DNA from: Mesaphorura yosii
Lineage: Eukaryota > Arthropoda > Collembola > Poduromorpha > Tullbergiidae
NCBI GenBank assembly: GCA_009869945.1
Contig: WIXG01000022.1
Location: forward strand, 358,529 to 422,528
Length of the DNA stretch: 64,000 nucleotides
Direction of reading: 5' to 3'
Under the pieces are notes generated by a model. The model was not told the DNA's origin and ran no database searches. It worked only from the letters and a program-made list of their open reading frames with translations. Made by a program: the position numbers and the translations under genes. Below, in pieces: positions 3,456 to 36,953 of the stretch (position 1 is its first letter; each line of letters opens with the position of its first letter).

Positions 3456-4642
3456 TCTAATTAGAAGTGCAAGGAAATTCGTAATATATGGATAGTTTTT
3501 TTCAATAAGAACTATTATTATTGTGATGAACATTCGCACAAAATAAAAGCAAGTTGGCTTAAATCTCGATGTCAAACTTTTCATCTTACTCGGAAGCGAG
3601 ATGGAAGAATCGCTTGAAGGCAAAATCAATCTTATACAAGTGGTAATTAATATTTGGCCTTAAGTTATGCATTCTTTTATTTCAACGCAAACTCCAAGCA
3701 GTTAGAAAGCTGCAACACTCCTGAAAAGTTTTCAACAAAGCTCGTCAAGTTGGGAAGCAAGAATCTCACGAAAAAACTTTCTTCCATCACTCTACTTTAA
3801 AGAATTTGAGAAGGCAGGGGCAAACGTACTTCAATGAATATCAGAATGACAGGAAGAAATGAAATAGAAACTTTCACTCTCGTTGTTCCATGCGTTGAAG
3901 AATCTGAGCGAAATGGAGAATCTGACGAGAGAGTGCTTTGCACGCGGAGAGGGTCGGCCTGCCTTAACCGATGGAGGGCGAGAAACTAAATTGAAATGAA
4001 ATAGAAGGACACACATGGAAAGGGAATGGCAAAGATGCTCAAGAACCTGGAAGTTGATTTTTGTTTGATAAATTGATTATTGATTACTTTTTTAGGTTGT
4101 ATTCATTGGATTCTGGGTTTGGATGCTGGACTACAGTGCATCCGCTCCGTGATTGACAAGTCGAGCATCCTTTTCTATGTCTAGCGTGCCTCGAACTTCT
4201 TTCATGCTGTGCTTGTGGTGCTCACTGTGGTGTGTTTCGGTGGCTGTCCGATTCCAAGGACTTCCAAAATCAACGACGGTCACGACAAGTTCTTGAATGT
4301 AGTTAGCCAGTCAAGATTGTGTACATGATGGTTGCAAATGGGGTAGCACGAAATCAAACTGCACATGACCTATCACATGAAAGAAAAGGGTCGTGTCCTT
4401 TCTCATTTTGAAATTGGAAGCCATCAAATGTACAACAGGCCCTTCCCACATGTCAATCAAATCCCATTGTGACTTTTCCCCACTCTTCATCTCTATGTCA
4501 TGGTCGCGTTGCTGCTACTGATTCCAACATAGTTTAATTTTACGACTCTCTTATCGGAGGTTGAGACCTAGCGCAAAACTAGTTCTCGGCGCCGTGGTGG
4601 AAGTTGGGAAGAGACGGTGGAGAAATGTGAGTCCAAGATGCG

Positions 4643-4702
4643 ATCGGCAAACTTCCATTCGAATCGGCAAACCGCTGATCCAACCGGCAAATTGCTGATC
4701 AA
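4643..4702. repeat. degenerate 20-bp tandem repeat, three units
   Basis: Three adjacent 20-bp units at 4643-4662, 4663-4682 and 4683-4702 share the form A(T/C)CGGCAAA followed by a variable half that is GCTGATC-like in units 2 and 3. A decayed fourth unit follows. No function is apparent. Confidence 0.7.
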
Positions 4703-5050
4703 AACAGGAAATCTATTTAATCTATGATCCAGTTATCAAATCGATCTAATCAGCGCAATAGTGACTGGGTCTGAAATAGACCTCGGGTTTAAAACCTCGG
4801 TTGGCTTCCTAAACAGTCCAGGTTGGTTTGGAGTCTATGGAGTCTGCAGTCAACTTGACGAACCGGAGTGCAACAAAAGATCTTGTGAAATTCTTTGTTT
4901 CAAGCTCGCTACGCTCTCGGCGATGCACACGCGCATTTAAAACAGTTTGAAAGTCCAAGCTGCACCAACGCGTCTTTACGATTTCACTTATCAGGTTTCA
5001 GCTTCGATCTTCAGAGGTGATCTTGGCTTAAAGTGGATCTCTTTGGAAAT

Positions 5051-5997
5051 ATGATGGCACCAATGCCTTACTACTGCATTCATTGTGGAAATGAAGAACC
5101 TCAAGTGTACAAAACATACGCAAACGGAAAACTGACGAAACTCCTTAATTGCGTAAGTCCTTGAGCTCGGAAAAGCGCCCTTACAATATGACTGCCTTAA
5201 CTGTAGCTGCTTTCTGATGGTTTCCCTTGTAGAGACAGTGCCGCCAACTAACTGATCCATACGTTGAATACGACACCTTGATTGTGGCCATGAATATACT
5301 GCTGCAGAATGCAAAGGCATACCGGCACATCCTTTTGAATACAGCCTTTATGGTTAGTTTAAAATTATATTGATGCTGTTGAAGTCATTGCCCTAATGGT
5401 GATTATTAATGCTGTGCTTTAAAGGGATATTGGAAGCTAGGTATAATGTTCGTTTTCTGCGAGGCCTATTGTACGTGGTGCTATCAGCAAGGGCAGAAAA
5501 CAGAAGCTGGGACTGACTTCTACGAATTAGAAATCAACTTCTATCGAGTGTTGTTGAGAACAATTTTGGGTACAGCTACTTTTCACGTAGCAATGCTTTC
5601 TTCAGTGATCTTCCAAAGGAGCGTCTTGTCAACTAAACTACCAAGCCAATTTTCCTACTTAACTCTGTGGAAAGGACTCTGCTTATGTGGCTTCGCGCAA
5701 GTTATGGAGTTGCTGGCTTTAATTTGGTCATATTCACACACAATGTCAAGCTTTTTATTTGTCAATTGTTTACTTGTTCTTTCAAATTCAAAGAGCTACG
5801 AAGGTAATGCTACAACTCAAATTATGATACATTCTTATGACGTGCTTGTTATGTGCTCTATGATTACATATTTCTTTTTACCATTAGTCATCACTGGAGC
5901 AGGCAATTATTCAGCGTTGATTATCACCCTGTGCGGAGTTGCTGTGCAAAAATGTGTGGTGTTTTCGTACGATCAGATGATCCTAAATGGAATCTAG
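5051..5997 (+). CDS. ARV1: ARV1-family ER lipid-homeostasis protein
   Basis: Three exons (5051-5152, 5233-5352, 5425-5997) join in phase 0 with GT-AG introns of 80 and 72 bp to give 264 aa, the usual ARV1 length. The N-terminal zinc ribbon has C9-x2-C12 and C34-x2-C37 (YYCIHCG and LNCRQC). It is followed by the family signature DPYVEYDTLIV and QNAKAYRHILLN, and then several hydrophobic membrane segments. ARV1 is an endoplasmic-reticulum membrane protein involved in sterol and sphingolipid distribution and GPI-anchor synthesis. ATG 5051 is the first in-frame start; a second ATG follows directly at 5054. The gene converges with the CatSper-like gene, leaving 239 bp between the stop codons. Confidence 0.93.
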
Positions 5998-6236
5998 ACT
6001 TCTAGACAGGTAATGCTTGTGGCAACAAATATAAACTTACTAATTTTCCAATTGCAATACAAATGTTGATTGCGAGTTACACCTGCGAGTTTCGTGCTCC
6101 CTTTGAGTGTAGTTTGAAGTTATGAAGCCATACTTGCCACACTGAAGCTCAGATCAATTATAACTAACATTTTACTTAACACAGCTGATTTTGAGGATAG
6201 AGGATTAGGCCTTTTGTTTAGCATTTGAATCTTGAA

Positions 6237-8622
6237 CTATACGACTTTTGGCGTCATCTTCGTTTTTGTTGCCGTCTTTCTGTCTGCTTCGCCGACTTGA
6301 TTAGGAAACAGAGTTTCAATTTTATCCCCGAGACGATAATCCAAAGCGTCTTGAACGGTCCAAGTGTTTTGCTAGAATGACAGGCACGTAGTGTTTAATT
6401 TCAGTAGGAACTACACTTTTCAACCTACTAAATCTAATAAGTACCTTTCCTGCGACCACAGCGTCCATCACGATGCCGATTAAATTTGATCGTCGTGTGT
6501 AGAAAAAGTATTCAAAATCAAGTGCAGATATAATCTTCAGATTCTCAGCCATCAGCTTCATTTCTCTGGTGCCGGAACCACCGAGACATGTCAACAGTTA
6601 AAGACTTGATTTGCAAATTCTTTATACATGCATGTAATAACGCGTACTCTGATTTAGGGTCCAAGTTATAGTAGTAGTCTTCTATGTGTAGATCTGCTCC
6701 TTCAGTTTCATCAAGTCCGTAGGCTACAAATCGAGCAATGTCAAAAAGTGCACAATTTCGTTTGGTTTGGATTTAGTTCACCTTTGTCAATCTCTTCTTC
6801 CTCTTCGGCGGCTAACCCAATTGATTCCATATTTTCGAAATCAATTGCATTCGATTCTGCCACCATCTGTGATTCTTCTGTTGATAGTTGAAAATTATCC
6901 ACCAAGACAGCCACGATCAAGCTAGAAGTAGAAATCCTTATTATTAAGCATCCAATTCCAAACCAAAAGGACAATAAATTAGTGTGCTCATACTTGAGAA
7001 ACACGAAAAATTCCAGCAAAATATAGATGAACAAATACACGAAGAACACGTAGTAGGTTTTACTGCCTTCTCCTCGATCGTAGTCGTCAGGAAGGTCAAA
7101 CCAGTCATCAAGCGTTAGAAGTTGAAACATTGTTAGAATTGATGACCAGATAGTATTGAAATGGCGAGGGTCATTCTCCTTAAAAAGTCCACGGCCAACC
7201 ACCGCAAATACAACTGCACAATGCACATTTGGGAATCAGATACTTCAAGTTACGTGCGGCTGTTCCACGATTAGACATTTAAGCACTTGCCCATTATAAT
7301 CATCATTAAGATCGCGATTGAACTCATGCTAATCATACTGTCGAAGATTGTGGAGACGGTGACTTGTAAGTTGGGCATGAATCTGAAAATAATCAGAGCT
7401 TCAGAAATCCGTAATCCTCTGTTTACGATAGCGATAACGTACTTGATGGCTCGAAGAAGTCGTAATGATCGGAGAGATTTTAGAAGTCTGAACACCAAAG
7501 AGCCATTGATGTTGGTACTCAGGGCCAGTATTTTTGTTATGAGTTCAACAAAGATTTCACTGCAAAGTGAGTCAGAGTAATTGCAATTAATAAAAAGCTG
7601 GAATAATGCCAGAATTTACACAAAATGTGTTATGATAATAGACAGGTCCAAGATGTTCCAGACACTTTTAAAATAGTCCAGTTCGTAAATACTGATTTTA
7701 CAGCAGGCTTCAATCAGGAACACGCCGATGATGATGCTGTCGCAAATTCGAAGGGGATGAGCTAGAAGAAAATAGAAAGACAGCAGACATTTTAGCATGT
7801 AGCTCATTAATTATCTAAATCAACGTAATAAAACGTAATAGCTCTCACTGTAGCGGATTTCGATGTATTCAAAGGTGAGTAGAACTATGATTAACGTTGA
7901 CAATGCTATCAGCACAAGCAGGAATCGATTAAAGAAATGGCTGTTCATGAATTCGTAGAGCATTCTTCTTCGTTCTGATGCGTTACGCAAATACAGCTCA
8001 CGCATGCACTTCTCTTGGAAGGCGTCCTTTAATAGTTTTTGCTCGGCTCGGTCCTAAAACGAACATCAAGTTGCATAGTTGCCAGTCCGATCGAGTTTTC
8101 AAATCGTGATAGCCTATGGCGGTATAAAATTGGAAATTACTTTGCACAATTGTAGAATTTGTTCAAACTGTTCGTCAGTAATGTGGAGGTTGCTCTTTAA
8201 CAAGGCTGATTTAGAAACTGAAGCGTTTGCTTTCTCGGAACTCTTGAATTGACGCAATATTAATTCGGCAGGTTTATCAGCATTCGTACTCGTCTTACTT
8301 TGACTCCTTTCTTTATCTTTGGCTTCTGGAGGTTTCGCTTCAGATCCGCGTATGCCGACTCCGGTCAACAGTGCGTTTAGGTCAGCATGTTCTCGTAATA
8401 TCTAGGAGAAATTAAGGCCATTTTGCGTGACTACTCATCTATCAATTGTAGTACAGACTACTTGCTTACTTTCAATTTCTTCTGTTCGTTTTCCAAGCAT
8501 CGAAGAAGTTCGTGAACCTTCATTCGATTAATAAACTTTGTCCATTCCTCATGAAATGCTGCTGCACTGACGGACTTCTTGGCGATCGGCTTTTTCGGCC
8601 GACGAAGCGACTTTATGGGCAT
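6237..8622 (-). CDS. CatSper-like single-domain voltage-gated cation channel
   Basis: Inferred exons in transcript order: 8622-8470, 8401-8141, 8053-7849, 7761-7620, 7559-7443, 7382-7291, 7213-6994, 6921-6782, 6723-6648, 6565-6445, 6371-6237. All phases agree and give 553 aa. After a charged N-terminus (about 180 aa) come S1 (181-202), S2 (212-230), S3 (240-262) and S4 (about 275-293) with basic residues every third position (RLLKSLRSLRLLRAIK). S5, a pore helix with the CatSper-type T-x-D-x-W filter (T357 L D D W361) and S6 (FLNLIVAVLVDNF) follow. The cytoplasmic tail contains EMKLMAENLKIISALD, resembling the conserved CatSper post-S6 region. CatSper forms the alkaline-activated calcium channel of the sperm tail. 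I cannot say which paralogue (1-4) this is. The last two introns are less certain than the rest. Confidence 0.83.
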
Positions 8623-8952
8623 TTTGAAGACACACAGGATTTATAGGCATACGCTTAGCTTCAATGGACGGAAATTGTCAAATCCCTCATGGACTGCTAT
8701 AATAAAGGCTAGGAGTTAGGATAGATTTCAATGGCTTCGGGAAACCGTCGCGTCTTGGTGCTTGTTGTGTTGGCATAAGTGATGTTGTAGTCACTAGAAA
8801 CTTACGAAATGTGACCACTGATTTTGAGTTGATGCAAGAACGATGCACCATTTCGACATCAAATCGATGTCAAATCTTACCCAAAACTGAAATTCTTCCC
8901 TTGTGATGGCAATTTTGTGTACTTGTTACAGTGTCAAGGAGGACTGAGGACA

Positions 8953-9099
8953 ATGCGGCGGAATCTCGATTCAGATGACGAAGAATTCCTTGATTTTGAC
9001 CGCATAAGACTGGAAATGGAAGATATTACTGAAGGCGAAAGTGAATGGACCCGCGCAGGGTGGGTTAGCCTCCGCCGGCGAAACCAGAAAGCCGGTTAG
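8953..9099 (+). CDS. small acidic hypothetical protein (48 aa)
   Basis: An ATG at 8953 opens a 48-codon frame with an acidic N-terminal half (RNLDSDDEEFLDFDRI, then EMEDITEGESEW) and a basic end. It lies in the gap between the divergent start of the CatSper-like gene and the end of the URB1-like gene. An AATAAA signal follows at about 9206. The composition is protein-like, but no family is recognised and upstream exons are possible: a TTACAG acceptor-like site ends just 5' at about 8931. Confidence 0.38.
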   Translation: MRRNLDSDDEEFLDFDRIRLEMEDITEGESEWTRAGWVSLRRRNQKAG

Positions 9100-9259
9100 G
9101 TGCCGACGAGGCGAAGTGGACAGACCCTGGACCAGCTATTATCTGATGTTCATGGAAATTAAGCGTATTATTATTGTTGGTGATAAAGTACAAAATTAAA
9201 GACGAAATAAATTCTACAGAACATTTTTCATTTTTCGCTATTTAGGGATAAATCATATT

Positions 9260-11005
9260 TTAATCATTTTTTTCTTCTTCTGTACCAGTGTTAAGGTCAA
9301 TCATAAATTCGGATTCAGACGTTTCATAACTTTTCACAGATTTAGTCCAGCCCTGTTTCTTAGCTACAAATTCAAACAAGGTTTCCCTCAGGCTTATATT
9401 ATAGTTTCTTGTACCAGAAGACACGTTCAGACTACTCTTCTGACGTAAAACATAAAAGAAGTTCTCAATTTCCTCTTTGAGGCTACCATTTGTAGTTCTC
9501 ACATTTGCTAACCAAATTAAAATTGAATATTTGTCAATGAACTCGTCAACGACTTCCGGAATAGCAGTTCCGTGGGTTAAAATCGCGATTATGGTCCTTT
9601 GTGTTTTCACCTTCTCCAATTGAAATGAAGAACACAAAAACTTAATGAATGGTGACTTCTGAATGATCTTCCAATCTTCAGGGGTTCGGAGTCCACAGTA
9701 CAGAATACTTAACAACCAAGGACGACTCTCCCTGTACAGAAACACAGAAAGAACGCAATTTATTTAGTTTCATGGCTCTGAGTTGCATCTCAGAAAACTC
9801 CAGGACGTACCTATCGTTTGCATTGTTGTAGAAAGGCACAAAATCTGGTAAAATGGTCATTTCAATAATTGGCTTCGCGAGGAGGGAATGCACAACACAT
9901 AGAAACATTGGATTTGTTGGTTCCTTTATAATTTTCCACACTGAAATTATCCAGGTCGCCAGCAAATGTGAAATTTTCGCTGTTCCGACTGTTTCCATCA
10001 TTTGAATCCCTCGTCGAATAGCGTTCAAGAAATGGAGCCAGATTTTAATATCTTGGTTCCGGTGAGCCTGTCCCGAGTCAAGCATACAATTATGTGTTTC
10101 TTCATATTAACGCCGAACGTATATTAATTATTACCTTACCTTGGCTTGTTGGAAATTTATTAGCAGCCTTTGGTACGCTAGAAAGGCCATTTTTCTTAGC
10201 TTTTCGCTTTCTAATGACAACCCCTTCATGATGAAGTAAATCCAACCGTGTGAAATAACCTTTGTCCCATCACAGATATTTGTTTCGCTTAGCACATGGC
10301 AAATTACAGACAATACAAACTCCAAATTATAAAAGTTGTCAGTTGTGGCAGGCTTCGTTTCGGAATAATGAAGGCAGGTGTGGTAGGCTTTCTTCTCGTC
10401 GATGCAATTTGCCAGGATAGTATTCGCTCGAGTCGAGTGTATGAAAAGTGGATTCGGGTTGTTGTTTTGACTAAACTTCTTAGACGAATTCGTTAGCAGT
10501 TCAAAGCTCTTTGGACCAAATAAAGGCATTGTTTCCAATTCCAGTCCAATTCTGCTATTTGAATACAAGGTTAAAATGCCTAGTACTTGCTGGTCCTTTG
10601 AAGACATTGTTCCACCGTACGAATTTAGAAGATATGGAATTGATTTCTTTAAAACTTCAAGTTTGCCCTCCTCTTTTCTTGATTTCTTGCTCTTGATAAT
10701 CGAAGAGGTTGTGTCGTGAATTAATTGAAGTGCTTCTGGGGATACTTGAGCATTTTCTTTGAAATTAACTTCTGATAGATCTGTAGGTGTTTTTGGTTCT
10801 AATAAAAACATACATTTAGATGTCAGCCACGTACGTATAAACGCTTTTAATGTGCAATACCTTCGACTACATTTCCACGGCTTTCCTCCTCGTCCTCGTG
10901 GTTTTCTCGAATTGCATCTGGACCTCGGACTTCCTCATTGTTAAAACGTACACGCTCTTCTGTCGTATTCGACGAGTTCATAAGATCTTCATGTTTCCGC
11001 TTCAT
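9260..11005 (-). CDS. URB1/NPA1-like nucleolar protein, C-terminal half only
   Basis: Four exons (11005-10861, 10798-10140, 10067-9811, 9731-9260) join in consistent phase to give 510 aa. The start MKRKHEDLMN has a basic, nucleolar-type N-terminus. The body matches what I know of the URB1 C-terminal region: MSSKDQQVLGILTLYSNS near the start, then NPMFLCVVHSLLAKP, PDFVPFYNNAND, and SRPWLLSILYCGLRTPEDW across the third splice. URB1/Npa1 acts early in 60S ribosomal-subunit assembly in the nucleolus. Full-length URB1 proteins usually exceed 1,500 aa with an N-terminal Npa1 domain, which is absent here because the next DNA upstream is another gene. This is either a split or truncated URB1 or a stand-alone paralogue of its C-terminal domain. 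Confidence 0.8.
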
Positions 11006-11101
11006 GGTTATACTGGACTTGTTTATTTGATCCGATTGATTAGTTCATAAGTGAATCCGTGTTGACTGTTGACCTCCTGGTATGTAGCTGGGTGTGCACC
11101 G

Positions 11102-11530
11102 CTATGCAGTAATGCAGTTCTCTTGTTCTAGCCAAATCTGTAAATAGTGCTTAGCGGTGGCACGATGACACCCACGGAAAATGAGGGCTTCCTTTAGTTT
11201 GGCTGAAATATATAATTAAACATACAAGGCTCAACGCCGTCACTTTTCCGTGAATGCATCTGCTATCAGCTTCACGCTTTTGTCGAATTCACTTACCTCA
11301 GCTTTCAGAAACGAATATCTAGGTGCTTTCACAGATAAACAGCCCGACAATGATAAATGCGGCCATTTAACTGTAAAATTAACTGAGCATTTATATGAAA
11401 GCACGTTATAAACCGAGCGCCGCTTTCCTTTTTTCAAATTTGGCAAACCAAGCACGTGCTTGTAACAGGTTGAACAGTGTAAGGTCAATGTAATGTTGTG
11501 AGTCTTACTTCTGAGTCGTAGTCTTGGCAC
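11102..11530 (-). CDS. uncertain minus-strand gene with a CxxC motif
   Basis: A minus-strand frame from 11530 to 11240 encodes a basic peptide with a CxxC pair (HCSTCYKHV) followed by KKGKRR. Inside it lies a strong donor (GCTGAG then GTAAGT, about 11299). An acceptor-like TATATTTCAG ends at about 11205, and a further open stretch of about 30 codons (beginning EALIFRGCHRATAKHYLQ) ends in TAG at 11102. Joining the two in phase needs an acceptor slightly inside the second exon. The upstream part is unresolved, and the first ATG is poorly supported. It might be a small zinc-ribbon protein; no family is assigned. Confidence 0.3.
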
Positions 11531-12732
11531 GAGGTTGGTTTCTTAAAACTGATTTTAAAGAAGTAGTTACGTTTTCGCGCATAAGGTTAATTCCAGTTGC
11601 GCTGGCAAATCGGTATCACTACTTCTACTGTTACAGTTACAAGCAAAGCTAGCGGCGGGCTAAAGCCCGCCGAGTATGATCTCGAGCAGGGGCCCGCGTT
11701 GACAATCGCGTCGAAGCCTGATTGAAGTTGGAATGGGATTCTAGAGTGATGGGCTATATGGAATTTGTTGGGAAACCCATCGCCATCGCGTGATTTACTA
11801 AATAAGCCTTCGGTGTACTTACTAAGGCGCACGTTGGCACGATTTCACAAATAAATCCAACATAGCCATCATTGAGGGGAAATACTACTGTGTACTATTA
11901 TGGAATGATTAAATGACGCCATGCAAATGGAGTGTGCAGCTGTGTGTTCCATTACGTCGCGATCCTCGCTTTAAAAAAGAGGTTGCCGCACCATCGACCC
12001 TTCACACCATTTTGTGTTTCTTTATGTTTTTCAAGTATACAAACACTCATGTCCAGGCTCAAGCTTCATGTCTATCTTTACAATTATGGTGCTTGAGCGT
12101 CGTCCGTAGTGCAGCGTGCACCACTTGGAAACTGTTAACTGCTTCAGATTAAATGCATGTAATGTACAGTGCATTCAAGATCGCTCGCATCGTTCCGTGG
12201 TTTTAAAGAAGAGATAGTCTATTGATTATTATTCAATTCTATTTAGCCCAAAGCAGACGCTGCAGCGTTGTACTCTGCATCAGCGCTGATGCGCTTTCAT
12301 CTTGAGTACAATTCTCGAATGACCATTTGAGTTATCTCAGTCACTAAATCGGTGAAACTGAATTTGTAATGTCGCATTTGGCAAACACTTGTTCAATTCT
12401 ACATCCATTGTTCGATGGTTTCGAGATTTCTACCGTTCCAGGGCAACGGAGCGGACACTTACTTGCTGATGATCATCAAACATCTGTCACTGAATTGAAA
12501 ATATGAATTTTTTGACAATGAATTGGGTGAAATGAAACGGTAGTCTCTTCCATTGGATAAACCGTTGCTACATTTAACAATGCATGGCCGAATCGCTTTT
12601 TCTTTCGCACACTTGCATCATTGCATCTTGAATTTGGCCTCGATTACCTGAACTGATAAATGGCTGGTGAAAACTTTCGCTGGCGTAATGTGTCTGGGAG
12701 TTCGTGTCCAGCAAGTACGTCGAAACCCAGCC
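11531..12732. other. intergenic, nothing convincing
   Basis: No gene supported. A GTAAGT donor-like site lies on the minus strand near 11822, and a perfect 16-bp palindrome with core CAGCGCTG lies at 12277-12292. The short frames here show no recognisable domain. Confidence 0.5.
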
Positions 12733-13867
12733 ATGGAGCTTCCAAGAATTGTTCTCCATAGTCTCTTTTCTTTCACGTTAATTATACTAATTCTTCCATC
12801 AATGGTAAGTAGTACATCGGGTTAATTCACTGATAAATCATTATTTCATTATGGCTTCCATATTCCATTCCATTGCAGAGATGTGACGGCAATCTCAAGA
12901 GCTCTTCGTCCAGCCTACATGACATTTGGCAACGAATCGAGAATGACATCATCAGAGCAGGTGGAATTGACGCGGAAGTGCTCAACACGTCTCTCTCACA
13001 GAAGCGTCATTTCCTCGACCCCGAAGGCAGTTCGGGGGACTACAACGTGCGCCTGCTGGACTACTTTCGTCGAAGGAACCGTGATGGCGAATGCAACCCA
13101 GAAACGAATATTTATCCGTGCGGAGCACTAGACTTCCTTGGCTGCACTGGAAATAAGAAGTTCTATGCGGAATCTGTCATTCGGGTAATCACGCCATCGC
13201 GAATGTGTGTATGTGACGCTAATCAGCACTTGTATTTACTAATGGCTTATAGCTGAACTGGTTCGAAGCCTGGGAGTTCTGTCGTAACAATGGCATGCAT
13301 CTCGCAAGTGTTGAGTCCACGTACGAGCAAGTGTTTCTGGAACTGTTTCTCCCAAAGCCAGAATCTGGATCCACTGAAGGTTACTGGCTCTCGGGCACTG
13401 ACTTTGGCCGTGAAGGATTATTCTACTGGATGAACTCTGGCAAATCATTTACGTACACAAACTGGAATCCATCCGAACCAAACAATTACAATGGACGTGA
13501 GCATTGTGTACAAATGATTGCGAACAGGAAATCAACGGATGCGTTGAGGTGGTATGATGCTCAATGCAATAAAGTTGGTTACGTCGTGTGTCAAGAACCC
13601 TACGATCGGAGGCCTGCGTCAACTAATGCTTTCGATTGGGTTCAAGAGAGGGACAATAGTAACAGAAACAAGATTATCGAACAACTCCAAGGTAAAACTA
13701 ACTTAAAACCGTTCCCAGCTGCAGAAATTAATGATGCGCCGATGCCGATCGTTGAACCAGCCACCAGCTTAACAAAGGAAACGGCAGAAGGCCATGAAAG
13801 ACCTAAAAATAAAATTAAATCAGGTTACTCGCCCATTTTGTCAGCATTGGCCGAAGCCGCTGAGTAA
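12733..13867 (+). CDS. secreted C-type lectin, EPN (mannose-type) motif
   Basis: Three exons (12733-12804, 12879-13184, 13253-13867) join in phase 0 with introns of 74 and 68 bp, giving 330 aa. Exon 1 is a signal peptide (MELPRIVLHSLFSF, then LIILILPSM). The carbohydrate-recognition domain runs from about residue 102 to 239, with NWFEAWEFC, YWLSGTDF, the calcium-binding E201-P-N203 motif (SEPNNYNG) and RWYDAQC. Cysteines are spaced as in long-form domains with an extra N-terminal disulfide. EPN generally goes with mannose-type sugar binding. A hydrophilic tail of about 85 aa follows. Arthropod C-type lectins often act in innate recognition; that role is inference here. An AATAAA overlaps the stop codon, and another lies near 13958. 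Confidence 0.92.
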
Positions 13868-25699: not shown

Positions 25700-25790
25700 G
25701 CTTCACATCTACCCTGTAGATCCGAATTTGTCTGAAATTTCAGACAGAAAACTTAACAAATTCGGTTCTAGAGAGGTTTGTGTGGAACAT
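25700..25790 (+). ncRNA. mir-10: microRNA mir-10 precursor
   Basis: The 5' arm at 25711-25731 contains ACCCTGTAGATCCGAATT, matching arthropod miR-10-5p along its length. The 3' arm at 25757-25779 (AAATTCGGTTCTAGAGAGG within it) matches the known miR-10-3p. The arms fold into a hairpin with a loop of about 25 nt, and the stem continues outward (CTTCACA against TGTGTGGAA). mir-10 is the ancient Hox-cluster microRNA, placed in arthropods between Dfd and Scr and able to target Hox mRNAs. Here it lies on the Dfd strand, 8.6 kb upstream of the Dfd start codon. Confidence 0.97.
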
Positions 25791-31700: not shown

Positions 31701-34369
31701 AGCTGAAAGTGCATTTATTATATTTTCGCGTTATACAAGTTTTTAACAAGTCAGGCCAGGCCAAGCTCAAGAGTAGTTTGAATAGCGATCGTACGTTACC
31801 TGTGTGAATGGACACGCGAGAGTTATTTAGAATGCGTGCATGTATGCACGTTTCTACCACCCAACACTCTCAACAATCTCGACTCCCGAGTCTCGAGTAC
31901 ATGAGCAATCCGTCACTGGAGTGTTTGTAGGGTCATTCATTATGTTTTCCATCAAATGGAGAATTTTGCCTTTCTGCCTAATAAACCGAGTTGGCACGGT
32001 GCTTGTGTTCAGCTTAAATGTGACTATACCGCTTCGAAGGCGCTGAAAGGGTCCACCGATAAAAATGCGAATGAATGAATCGAATTGGGCTTGGGATCGA
32101 ATGATGAAAAGTGCACATGCGCAGATCAAGTGCCCAAAACGAAGAGCAATCTCAAAACAACATTGCGCAAACGGCAGACAGCCAAGAATGAGCCATGTCA
32201 AGTGTGGTAATCCAAGTTTGGCAAATCCGCATTGTCTTGATAACGCCAGTGCATGGCAGACATGCTTGACAACGCTGTCACAGGCGCTATGGCTTGGATG
32301 TGGACGTGGGCTTGGGCAGGACGGTGCGTTGCGGTGTTATGACGAGATAATACCAAGCCGGATCCTTCGCGGAATGTCCTTTCGAATCTTTTCGCTTCAC
32401 TACCAATCATATCTTTACATGCATTTCCCGAAGACGACTAGAATGATTTCATTTCATTAAATTCTGTATCGCGGCAGAGTCCATGAGCTTTCGAAACCTT
32501 TCAATGTTTTATTCAACTTCCCTGAAATAAAACACGAACCTAAGTTCTGTTTCGTGTGCTCGGGCTTCCAGTCCGAAGTCAGCGATTTGACTATTCAATG
32601 ATACCAACCGCAAATTTTGAGTCCAGCCGAAGCTTTATGACTGGCAAAATATCAGACGTGCACCAAGTCATCGGTTTTGCTCAAATCTGAGCGGATTGGT
32701 GTTTGTGGCTCTGGCAGCAGTAACTCAAACTAGTCGCCCCATGCCACGGCCACGTAATGCCTGCCAGTTAGCGGAGCCGGAGTTTGGACTTGAGTGACTG
32801 AGGTCCTAAGAGTCCTTCTGAAGAGTGCGTTGAGAGTTGAGTTGGAGAGTCTCCCATCCATCCATCTCGCCAGTCATCCATCTCCTCGCCTCCTCTACAT
32901 TATTGTTATTATATCGCATGTACTGCCTGCTTGCCTGCCTGGTTGCTCGTACGAACGACCACGACGGAGTACGCACACATTCTTCATCCATCCATCCATC
33001 CTTTGAAGAGTGTTGCTGCTAATAGAGACCCACCCCATGTATGCCTGCGCGATGGCCGTGTTTTCTCTTTGCTGTGACTCAAAATAAGAAAGACGAGAAA
33101 AAACATAAAAAAGAAAACTCATCTATCATTCTTGTCCAAATCACCTCACAGCAAACTCCTGCTTAAGAACTCATTCAGCAACAGTTTTGTTCTCACAATT
33201 TTTCTCAACTCCGCTCCACGCTCATCGCGGACCAGGCTCACCGCGCCACAGCAGTCAGATTGCAGTCCAGCCTGGCACTTTATCACACGAGCGGCTCCGC
33301 AAATCACCATATTTAACACGCTAATTGGCAGTCAAACACGTGGTCGCCGCAGAAAGTGCAAGACGGCGGCTTGGACTTGGATTCTGCAATTAGCGAGTTA
33401 TTGAGACGAGAATTCGCTACGGCGCAGTGCACGACGCGTCTGTGAATCATGAACAGTGTCCAAGAGTCGAGTTTACGGTGCAAATAAAATTGACAGCTGA
33501 AATGATACACGGCGGTCATAAAAGGCGAGCGGAGAGTTAATGGATACTTAATAGTTCTGGCACACTGGAGAATTCTACGGTCGGGGAAAGTGGCGTCGTA
33601 AAACGGTGAAAGGTGTGGAAAGATAAGGGAACAGTAAACACAAAGTTCTCTGAGAAAGAAAGAAGAAAGATCTCAAACCTAAGAAAGTGTTTTACGTGTG
33701 CATTTGCTTTGCTTGCTCCGCGGAAGTGGTGAATGAGAACGGTCGCGTACGTGAATTGTGTACATTTTTATGGAAGAACACACACAAAGCGGAATCCGCT
33801 GGATGAACCTTCTTTTCGTAGAGGGTTAGAAATAAGTGCTCTCAGTTTGATTTATGTGGCAATAATTTGTGTTGCGGTTTCACGTTACCGCATACTCGTT
33901 CGTCTGTGCGACCGCTGTTGCTTCTTTTCTCTGAATTACTCTTCTTTCCTTTCACAAGTACATTTCTATTACCACGATAGTTAACACGTTATTACATAAT
34001 AAAAACGGTCGTAAAATTTGGATAATCGGCCCAACGGAGAACAATACTTTCATTGTGGCATGTGGTGGCCGCGACCTGAGACCGTGAATTACAAAACTGT
34101 GTCCGAGTAGACTTCCACTTACCACAAGGACGTCCAGTTTCTTTGAGACCAGTTTTGTGTGAGACGTGTGGAATTTGAAACAACGGACCTGAAGAATGAA
34201 CCAGTCACAATTAATTGGATGGGCATGAATGAAAGTGAACTGAATCACAAACGCATCACTTCGTAATCAAATTTGATCAAAAGGGACACAAAAGGAAATT
34301 AATAATTTCTGTGTCCTGACACAAGCCCAGACACACAAAACCGAACAAAGGCAACTGCCGCCGTGTACA
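25791..34369. other. gene desert between mir-10 and Dfd
   Basis: About 8.6 kb without a supportable coding region. It contains CATC-type microsatellite runs near 32855-32885 and 32985-33001, and a purine-rich stretch near 33640-33680. The last several hundred bases must hold the Dfd 5' UTR and promoter, which could not be located precisely. Frames up to 157 codons (28330-28803) have no recognisable domain. Confidence 0.6.
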
Positions 34370-36953
34370 ATGAGTTCATTCCTGATGAACTCGAGTGCTA
34401 ATTATTTAGACCCCAAGTTTCCACCTCCGTGCGACGAGTATGGCAGTGGTGGCATGCCAGGTTACGGCGAATACTACGGAATGCCACCGCAACAAGCTAA
34501 TAACAGTGCTAATAATAGCCCCAGTGGAAATGGAGGAATGCACGGCTTGAATTCTCCGGCAATTCATCCACATCATCAACTGTCTTCTACCTCCGCCACA
34601 CATCATCATCACCCGCACTCGCACCCTCATCAGATTTACTATGCCCAAACTGGTGGATCGCCACCGCTGTCTATCAGTCAGTCACATCATCATCCACACC
34701 AGAACCTGATTCCTACTGGCGGCTCCGCGCACCTGAATCACTCTTCGCAGCACGTACTTGGACACCATCACTCCTCCATTCTACCGCAGCCGCATTCGCA
34801 TCCGCACCATCAACTAAGTCACAGTTTAAATTCGCAGTCCATTTACCCTGGGAATCCTGGCAGCGAGAGCGGCAACGATGTTCTGAGTCCGAGTAACTCG
34901 AGCGAGCAGCTGATTTCACAGTCAAGGCTAATTAACGCCGGTGGTCGCATTGGGGAGAATGTCTCACCTGCTGCGGGGTTCCTGTCGGGACACTCGTACA
35001 ATACTCCACACCATGCTGGTCTGAATAACCTTAGTGGCTCGCACCACGGTCTGAATCCGCACGGACACCACCAATCACAATACTACCCGGGCGCCGGTTC
35101 TTCGGGAGTGAATCTTGAAGATCCACACCACCAGCATTCTAGTCCACCACTCAATGTTCTCAACAGGAATACATCTCCCTTGTCATCTAATTACTTGAGC
35201 CAACAACTTCAGAGGAATTCGAACAATAACAACGTCGCCGTGAAGCAACCGTTGTCTCCAGGCAGCAATTCAACAAACAGCAGCAATGCGACGTCGGGCC
35301 TCATGGGCCTGATGTCCAGCTCCGGACTCGGTGAATATTTAACCAAATTTGATCCTGGAAGCATCGATAATAACAACGATTGTGATGTGTTAGCGAATAG
35401 TAGCAACATTACTCATGTGAGTGGTGGGACAATGTGCAACGGGAGAGGTGACAGTGGCGGTTCGACCATTCCGAATGGTCATCATTCGCATCCTCACCGC
35501 GGCTCGCATTCAGGCGGCGCGGCAGGCAGCATGGAAATGAGCCCATGTGTTGGTGGCGGCTTGGACGATCTTGACGATGACGATGACAGCAGCTGCAGCA
35601 ATAATATTCCCTCAGAATGCCTGGACTCCGACGAGGAAGGCGAAGATGGCCAACGAGTCATTTTTCCATGGATGAAGAAAATTCATGTGGCCGGTGTCGG
35701 TAAGAGTCTTGCCCTTTCGTTAGAGATAAGGCCGCCAAAAGTCTCTGCCAAATATGACATTTTCTACTTGGAGATATGAATCTACTTGAAATTCGGACAT
35801 CGAAATTTTGATGAGGCGATTTTAGAATATCGAAGCTAGCAAACAAATAGAGATTCAAATGTCCAATTTTAAGTCATAGGCAGGGGAAACAGTTAATTGG
35901 CTGGATTGGAATTAAGGGTCGCCAGAGAAACTCCCAGAACACATTGGACAGCATGGGTTAGGTTAGGTTAGGTTCGTTTCCCAAGACAACTAACATTGTG
36001 TAATGCGGCGCACTATGGGCTGGCTACCCTTAACTTCAATTCAACCCAGTTATTTGATCTTTGCATTTGCAAGGTATTTGCTGTGCAATTTGTTGTTTTT
36101 GAGTCAGTGTCTAAATCTCCCCTTTTGAGTAACTACGACTGGACTATGACTTGCATTGCGTGCTTTCTTTTTCCCAAGGCTGCTGCCTTGAACAAGTGTT
36201 CCACAGTTCAGTCAGAATCCACGAAAATATTGCACAGTAGAATTGCGAAAATATTGAAAAAACATTCGATCGAACCACAAAAGTCCCCAGCACCACGTGT
36301 CAGCCAGAAATTGTTCTCATGCTTCCTATCTCTTTCTCCCGTCTCTCATTGCAGCAAACGGTTCGTTCCAGCCGGGAATGGAGCCGAAACGTCAACGAAC
36401 GGCGTACACTCGTCATCAAATATTAGAATTGGAAAAGGAATTTCACTTCAATCGATACCTGACACGGAGACGACGGATCGAGATTGCACACTCGCTCGTG
36501 CTCTCGGAAAGACAAATTAAAATCTGGTTTCAAAATCGACGGATGAAATGGAAGAAAGATAATAAATTGCCGAATACGAAGAATGTCAGACGGAAAAATA
36601 AACCCACCGCAATCGCCACGACGGGTACGGGAACGGGGACGGCGAACAGCACGACAAACACGACGGCGACGAATTCCAAAACGACAACTACGAGCTCCAG
36701 CGGCAGTAATAACATTAGCAATAGCGGCGTTAACAATAATTCAACTTCTTCCAGAACACCGACGGGCAGCGGCAACGGGCCGAGTTCCATGAATAACAAC
36801 AACTACATGACACCTGATTTGATGAACTTCCTCGGAAACTCGTCGTCTCCTGCGTCATCGGCAGCCTCGAATGCATCGAATTGTTCACAATTGCTGTCAA
36901 CCCACAATATCAAATCGTCGGGATCGCCAGAGTATGGCCTTACTGCCCTATGA
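34370..36953 (+). CDS. Dfd: Deformed homeobox transcription factor (Hox4)
   Basis: Exon 1 (34370-35699) and exon 2 (36355-36953) join across a 655-bp GT-AG intron inside the codon for A444, giving 642 aa. The N-terminus [19 protein letters not shown] is the Hox4/Dfd signature. A long His-, Ser- and Asn-rich region follows, then an acidic run ([10 protein letters not shown], about 401-410). The hexapeptide FPWMKK (432-437) is followed by the Dfd linker [20 protein letters not shown]. The homeodomain spans 454-513 ([33 protein letters not shown]) with Q503 and N504 at its DNA-reading positions 50 and 51. A Thr/Ser/Asn-rich C-terminal tail follows. Dfd is a nuclear regulator that patterns the mandibular and maxillary segments. 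AATAAA candidates for the mRNA end include one near 37794. Confidence 0.98.
35899..36047. mobile_element. MITE-like inverted-repeat element with TTAGG core, copy 2, in Dfd intron
   Basis: This 149-bp element matches copy 1 (3021-3165) in reverse orientation. Shared blocks include GGATTGGAATTAAGGGT, CCAGAACACAT, GCATGGGTTAGGTTAGG and GCGGCGCACTATGGGCTG. Terminal inverted repeats end in GATTGGAATTAAGGGT and CTACCCTTAACTTCAATTC. Flanking 8-bp direct repeats are AGTTAATT (35891-35898) and AGTTATTT (36048-36055), one mismatch apart. The core holds three tandem TTAGG-type units. It is an insertion in the only Dfd intron, away from the splice sites. Confidence 0.88.

Follow-up and report, generated by a model that had tools for sequence, protein, structure and literature searches.

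The gene at positions 6237-8622 on the minus strand of the window, by which we mean the whole 64,000-nucleotide stretch of DNA analysed, is best explained as an arthropod orthologue of CatSper1. Its product would most likely form one quarter of a heterotetrameric, voltage-sensing and Ca2+-selective channel together with the CatSper2, CatSper3, CatSper4 and beta subunits encoded in the same genome, a reading to which we assign a probability of about 0.87. That arthropods have CatSper is in part already known, and what is of note here is that a single genome encodes beta as well as each of the four pore subunits, along with paralogues under constraint.

Gene structure and protein features

The gene consists of 11 exons, which run from an ATG at 8622-8620 to a TAG at 6239-6237 and splice without frameshift or internal stop into a product of 553 residues. 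The 10 introns are each 58-87 bases long, nine with GT-AG borders and one, with its donor at 7290, with GC-AG borders. Exon 1 (8470-8622) begins with the start codon and encodes residues 1-51, exon 2 (8141-8401) encodes N-terminal tail, and exon 3 (7849-8053) covers the end of this tail and S1 (at about 7924-7865). S2 and S3 are located in exon 4 (7620-7761), the S3-S4 region and the S4 voltage sensor in exon 5 (7443-7559), and the S4-S5 linker and most of S5 in exon 6 (7291-7382), which is followed by the GC donor. Exon 7 (6994-7213) contains the end of S5, the pore helix, the filter TLDDW (7115-7101) and most of S6, the end of which (LIVAVLVDNFQ) lies in exon 8 (6782-6921) next to the start of the C-tail. 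The rest of the C-tail is encoded by exons 9 (6648-6723), 10 (6445-6565) and 11 (6237-6371), the last of which also contains the C-terminus and the stop codon.

The least certain points of this gene model are the boundary between exons 9 and 10 and intron 5, which is in frame and stop-free. For the 3' boundary of exon 9, which is less certain than the other boundaries, the choice was guided by the length of the intron and the reading frame. Exon 10 finds support in a homologous stretch of a further CatSper1-like copy, located on contig C499. If read as coding, the 60 bases of intron 5 would insert 20 residues into the S4-S5 linker. This was rejected since the spliced form aligns without gaps to CaV and NavAb at the linker; an alternative isoform may still retain the intron.

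The N-tail of 177 residues is rich in basic residues (37 K+R, 24 D+E), and the C-tail of 145 residues is acidic (31 D+E, 14 K+R). The S4 segment, FRLLKSLRSLRLLRAIK, has a basic residue at every third position, six in all (R278, K281, R284, R287, R290 and K293), and the selectivity filter is T357-L-D-D-W361. The Ion_trans model of Pfam matched the protein in a single stretch (177-414; 143 bits, E = 1.2e-41), and a weaker match was obtained for the PKD_channel model (E = 3.7e-11). The original prediction had described an apparently intact gene for a channel with six segments, a regular S4 and a T-x-D-x-W filter, all of which were recovered, whereas the "CatSper-like tail" that it also named gained no backing from Pfam, as no model matched the C-tail at E values up to 1. 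Parts of the C-tail do recur in the second CatSper1-like copy on contig C499.

Similarity to known channels

A phmmer search of the PDB chains aligned mouse CatSper1 to the window protein in one stretch with 134 bits (E = 7.4e-38), a value at which the homology, as judged from the sequences, is not due to chance. The search names the molecule only, and we take the CatSper1 chains 7eeb_A and 9ubw_A to be from mouse. This was the best single-domain match, the CaV domains displayed reaching at most about 77 bits, with domain scores given for 5 of the 60 chains listed. By total score CatSper1 ranked 20th, below CaV chains and one NaV chain, and the CaV chains top this list because the scores of their four domains add up. 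Bacterial-type single-domain chains, some of which are chimeras with human NaV segments, scored 77-84 bits, with the CatSper1 match about 50 bits above the best of them. When the pore alone was used as query, CatSper1 was the top match, and the CatSper1 chains likewise show TLDDW. Out of 2000 shuffled versions of the protein, 33 contained the motif TxDxW, which is therefore weak evidence when taken by itself.

Like mouse CatSper1, the window protein has a single six-segment domain, the filter TLDDW and an S6 ending in LNLxxAVLVDNFQ. The two proteins are 34% identical, as compared to 22-29% identity to the 13 other rows of the alignment, among them the CaV domains II used (25-27%) and mouse CatSper2-4 (23-25%). 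They differ in or after S4, where the mouse protein is longer by six residues that two aligners put at different places, and in the N-tail, which is rich in histidine in mammalian CatSper1 but contains only 5 histidines in 177 residues here; we do not treat this feature as defining the family. Domain II of the CaV channels shares the Ion_trans fold and aligns without gaps over S4 and the S4-S5 linker, but is one of four domains per chain and has a different filter.

Other CatSper subunits in the same genome

The genome (93.0 Mb in 1127 contigs) was searched with the Ion_trans model, which yielded at least 123 matches. We took 40 regions from the genome and scanned all of them by motif and phmmer; open frames were read at contigs C217, C532, C102, C4, C1 (at 491300), C499, C5, C66 and C477, the other regions being covered by the motif and phmmer scan only. 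Among these matches and through direct searches, all four pore types were found, each with a TxDxW filter that includes the aspartate.

CatSper2 is present in two copies, on contigs C217 and C532, with the filter TLDHW. The C217 copy matched CatSper2 with 131 bits in one stretch, and the best CaV domain among the three chains displayed scored about 61 bits. When only the pore served as query, the total scores of two CaV chains (69.5 and 69.2 bits) exceeded that of CatSper2 (68.6 bits), their best domain scoring about 22 bits. CatSper4 is likewise present in two copies with the filter TQDGW, one on C447 without introns, which looks like a retrogene, and one on C1 with introns. The former matched mouse CatSper4 with 121 bits, as compared to 42 bits for the best CaV domain displayed. 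CatSper3 is located on contig C5 and shows the filter TLDGW after splicing by eye. It matched mouse CatSper3 with 93 bits in one stretch; no domain of the single CaV chain displayed scored above 45 bits, and the best bacterial-type chain listed scored 60 bits. By total score, CatSper3 ranked 25th. In the reverse direction, mouse CatSper3 gave its best matches in the genome to other channels and matched C5 only with an E value of 4.5e-6. A second CatSper3 was not detected in the genome at E values up to 0.01. On contig C477 (39000-44500), Ion_trans matched four times within one divergent, apparently intronless open frame of about 1310 residues.

The model for the C-terminal domain of CATSPERB (PF15149) had one match that passed the cut-off, on contig C66 (E = 8e-27), in one of the nine open frames scanned at this locus. 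The models for CATSPERG, CATSPERD and CATSPERD/E (PF15064, PF15020 and PF22850) gave no match in the genome at E values up to 1, nor did they in the control genomes. Of the animal complex, which comprises CatSper1-4 and the beta, gamma, delta and epsilon subunits, the genome shares CatSper1-4 and beta, and it has in addition extra copies of CatSper1, CatSper2 and CatSper4. The search for further pore subunits and for beta and gamma proposed along with the original prediction was thus successful for CatSper2, CatSper3, CatSper4 and beta, while it returned nothing for gamma, here as in the controls. Genes for radial-spoke proteins were represented by nine matches, seven on contig C157 and two on C186, which implies motile axonemes or flagella. 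To our knowledge, motile axonemes in arthropods are those of flagellated sperm.

Genomic surroundings and host

The window is part of contig C22, which carries homeodomains in the order abd-A, Ubx, Antp, ftz, Scr and Dfd; another contig, C209, carries Hox3, pb and lab. The names are our assignments, based on diagnostic residues. This Hox set identifies the host as an arthropod, in line with what had been assumed, and the canonical Hox3 presumably means that it is not a winged insect. A search of the assembly for COX1 gave no match. Between Scr and Dfd (window positions 5040-13864; C22 353991-395112) lie the non-Hox genes ARV1, CatSper1 and a NopRA1-like gene, as well as a C-type lectin domain; apart from this interruption, the Hox cluster keeps its order from abd-A to Dfd. 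A mir-10 precursor (25703-25784, plus strand; 53.5 bits) is located upstream of the Deformed-like gene, which occupies positions 34277-36950 on the plus strand and has the start MSSFLM, an FPWM motif and a homeodomain. A derived Antp-like homeodomain was observed off the cluster contigs (C621, 12349-12534).

Phylogeny

For the maximum-likelihood analysis, we used an alignment of 261 columns and 15 of 19 rows; the divergent four-domain C477 sequence was omitted, with four rows dropped, and the analysis did not include the CatSper1-like sequence from C499. The dataset contained one mouse CatSper1, four CaV domain II sequences and NavAb as the sole bacterial channel. The window protein and mouse CatSper1 were placed on one side of a branch with support values of 99/98, and the pair held at 99/99 when mouse CatSper3 was left out and at 98/96 without NavAb and both CatSper3 rows. 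The two CatSper2 copies were placed as CatSper2 with support of 100/99 and the two CatSper4 loci as CatSper4 with 95/94, whereas the CatSper3 on C5 reached only 88/92, for which the program warns that two long branches meet. Support for the whole CatSper group was 79/80 in the full tree, and 51/24 and 99/97 in two reduced trees. Together with the match in the PDB, the tree supports the identification of the gene as a true CatSper pore subunit, as originally predicted, and more precisely, by sequence, as CatSper1.

Extra copies and constraint

The second CatSper1, on C499, is partial (4151-4989 of the extracted locus) and covers the end of S5, the pore, S6 and the C-tail. Segments S1-S4 were not detected within the surrounding 6.5 kb, and no S1-S4 fitting this copy was matched elsewhere in the genome at E values up to 0.001. 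Directly upstream of the copy is an open frame that, in our judgement, resembles a BTB protein.

We compared the codons of the three paralogous pairs over conserved stretches. The two CatSper1 copies share 86 identical residues over 130 codons, with a dN of 0.25 and saturation at synonymous sites, and the two CatSper4 copies share 135 identical residues over 210 codons, with a dN of 0.30 and synonymous sites again saturated. For the CatSper2 pair, 90 residues were identical over 126 codons, dN was 0.21 and dS 3.3, corresponding to a ratio of 0.06. Since the stretches were picked by hand for conservation and do not represent whole genes, these values are biased towards constraint. The values indicate that the pairs are old and, at least in the stretches compared, constrained.

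Alternative interpretations

A different single-domain or CaV-derived channel could have converged on the TLDDW filter. Consistent with such an origin, the CaV chains outscored CatSper1 in the PDB search when their domains were summed, the identity of the window protein to the CaV domains II is no lower than that to mouse CatSper2-4, and the whole CatSper group was weakly supported in two of the three trees. We nevertheless consider it very unlikely and largely refuted: the CaV domains displayed fell far below the 134 bits of CatSper1, to which the identity is also highest, the pairing with mouse CatSper1 was strongly supported, and grouping of the window protein with the CaV domains was rejected by the AU test (p = 0.005). 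The single domain, and the scores of the bacterial-type chains, some of them NaV chimeras, would also fit a NaChBac- or NavAb-like channel acquired horizontally. The gene, however, has ten introns, a placement with NavAb, the only bacterial channel in the tree, was rejected (p = 0.015), and the CatSper1 match exceeds the best bacterial-type match by a wide margin, making such an acquisition extremely improbable. The phylogenetic comparison with bacterial-type and other channels, suggested at the outset as one that could refute the prediction, came out in favour of CatSper1.

A more serious alternative is that the gene is a CatSper1 that no longer works in sperm, either as a decaying relic or redeployed in another tissue. 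The patchy retention of CatSper in arthropods, exemplified by two rather than four pore subunits in Heliconius according to Romero and Nishigaki (2019, PMC6660944), would be in line with this, as would the second CatSper1 copy, in which no voltage sensor was detected. Against decay or redeployment stand the intact frame over 11 exons, the dN of 0.25 alongside saturated synonymous sites in the 130 conserved codons compared with C499, and the persistence of four pore types and beta together in a genome that also has axonemal genes. We consequently regard a loss of the sperm function as unlikely and retain a CatSper1 subunit of a sperm channel as the preferred reading.

Discussion

In mammals and sea urchins, CatSper is a channel of the sperm flagellum that opens upon depolarisation and alkalinisation, and the entry of Ca2+ reshapes the beat. 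By analogy with these animals, four different subunits, each contributing one filter aspartate, would assemble into a Ca2+-selective pore, with the S4 charges sensing voltage and the beta subunit supporting assembly. The predicted channel would be expressed in sperm and located in the flagellum, would be opened by depolarisation and alkalinisation, and Ca2+ entry through it would change the flagellar beat and so contribute to motility.

The host may even build two alternative channels, one from the standard subunits and the other from the extra copies of CatSper1, CatSper2 and CatSper4, with CatSper3 and beta shared between them. If true, each channel might serve its own sperm type or stage. 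We consider this doubtful; what bears on it is that the codon comparisons point to constraint on the extra copies, that no voltage sensor was detected in the second CatSper1 and that one of the copies resembles a retrogene.

A CatSper gene in an arthropod is less of a surprise than the original prediction suggested, since pieces of the complex are already in print. In Cai and Clapham (2008, PMC2572835), a CatSper4 EST is reported from the springtail Onychiurus arcticus, and lineage-specific losses are described that leave many animal lineages without CatSper. Romero and Nishigaki (2019, PMC6660944) describe the arthropods as heterogeneous, with two pore subunits in the Heliconius butterfly and no CatSper in the fruit fly, and another study states that CatSper was searched for in a mud crab and not found (PMC8952799). 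As compared to the springtail EST and the two butterfly subunits (PMC2572835, PMC6660944), the genome studied here combines all four pore types with beta. In the literature searched, consisting of partial texts without figures and of no bioRxiv preprints, we met no earlier report of a full pore set with beta and retained paralogues in an arthropod.

Fruit flies have no CatSper, whereas the host lineage appears to have retained the channel. The finding of CatSper1-4, beta and axonemal genes in one genome shows that at least one line of arthropods still has the core channel. This favours separate losses inside the group over a single loss that preceded it. The retained paralogues fit badly with the suggestion of Cai and Clapham (2008, PMC2572835) that a further CatSper duplicate is excessive and then degenerates. 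This genome offers a system in which to ask what role CatSper plays in arthropod sperm.
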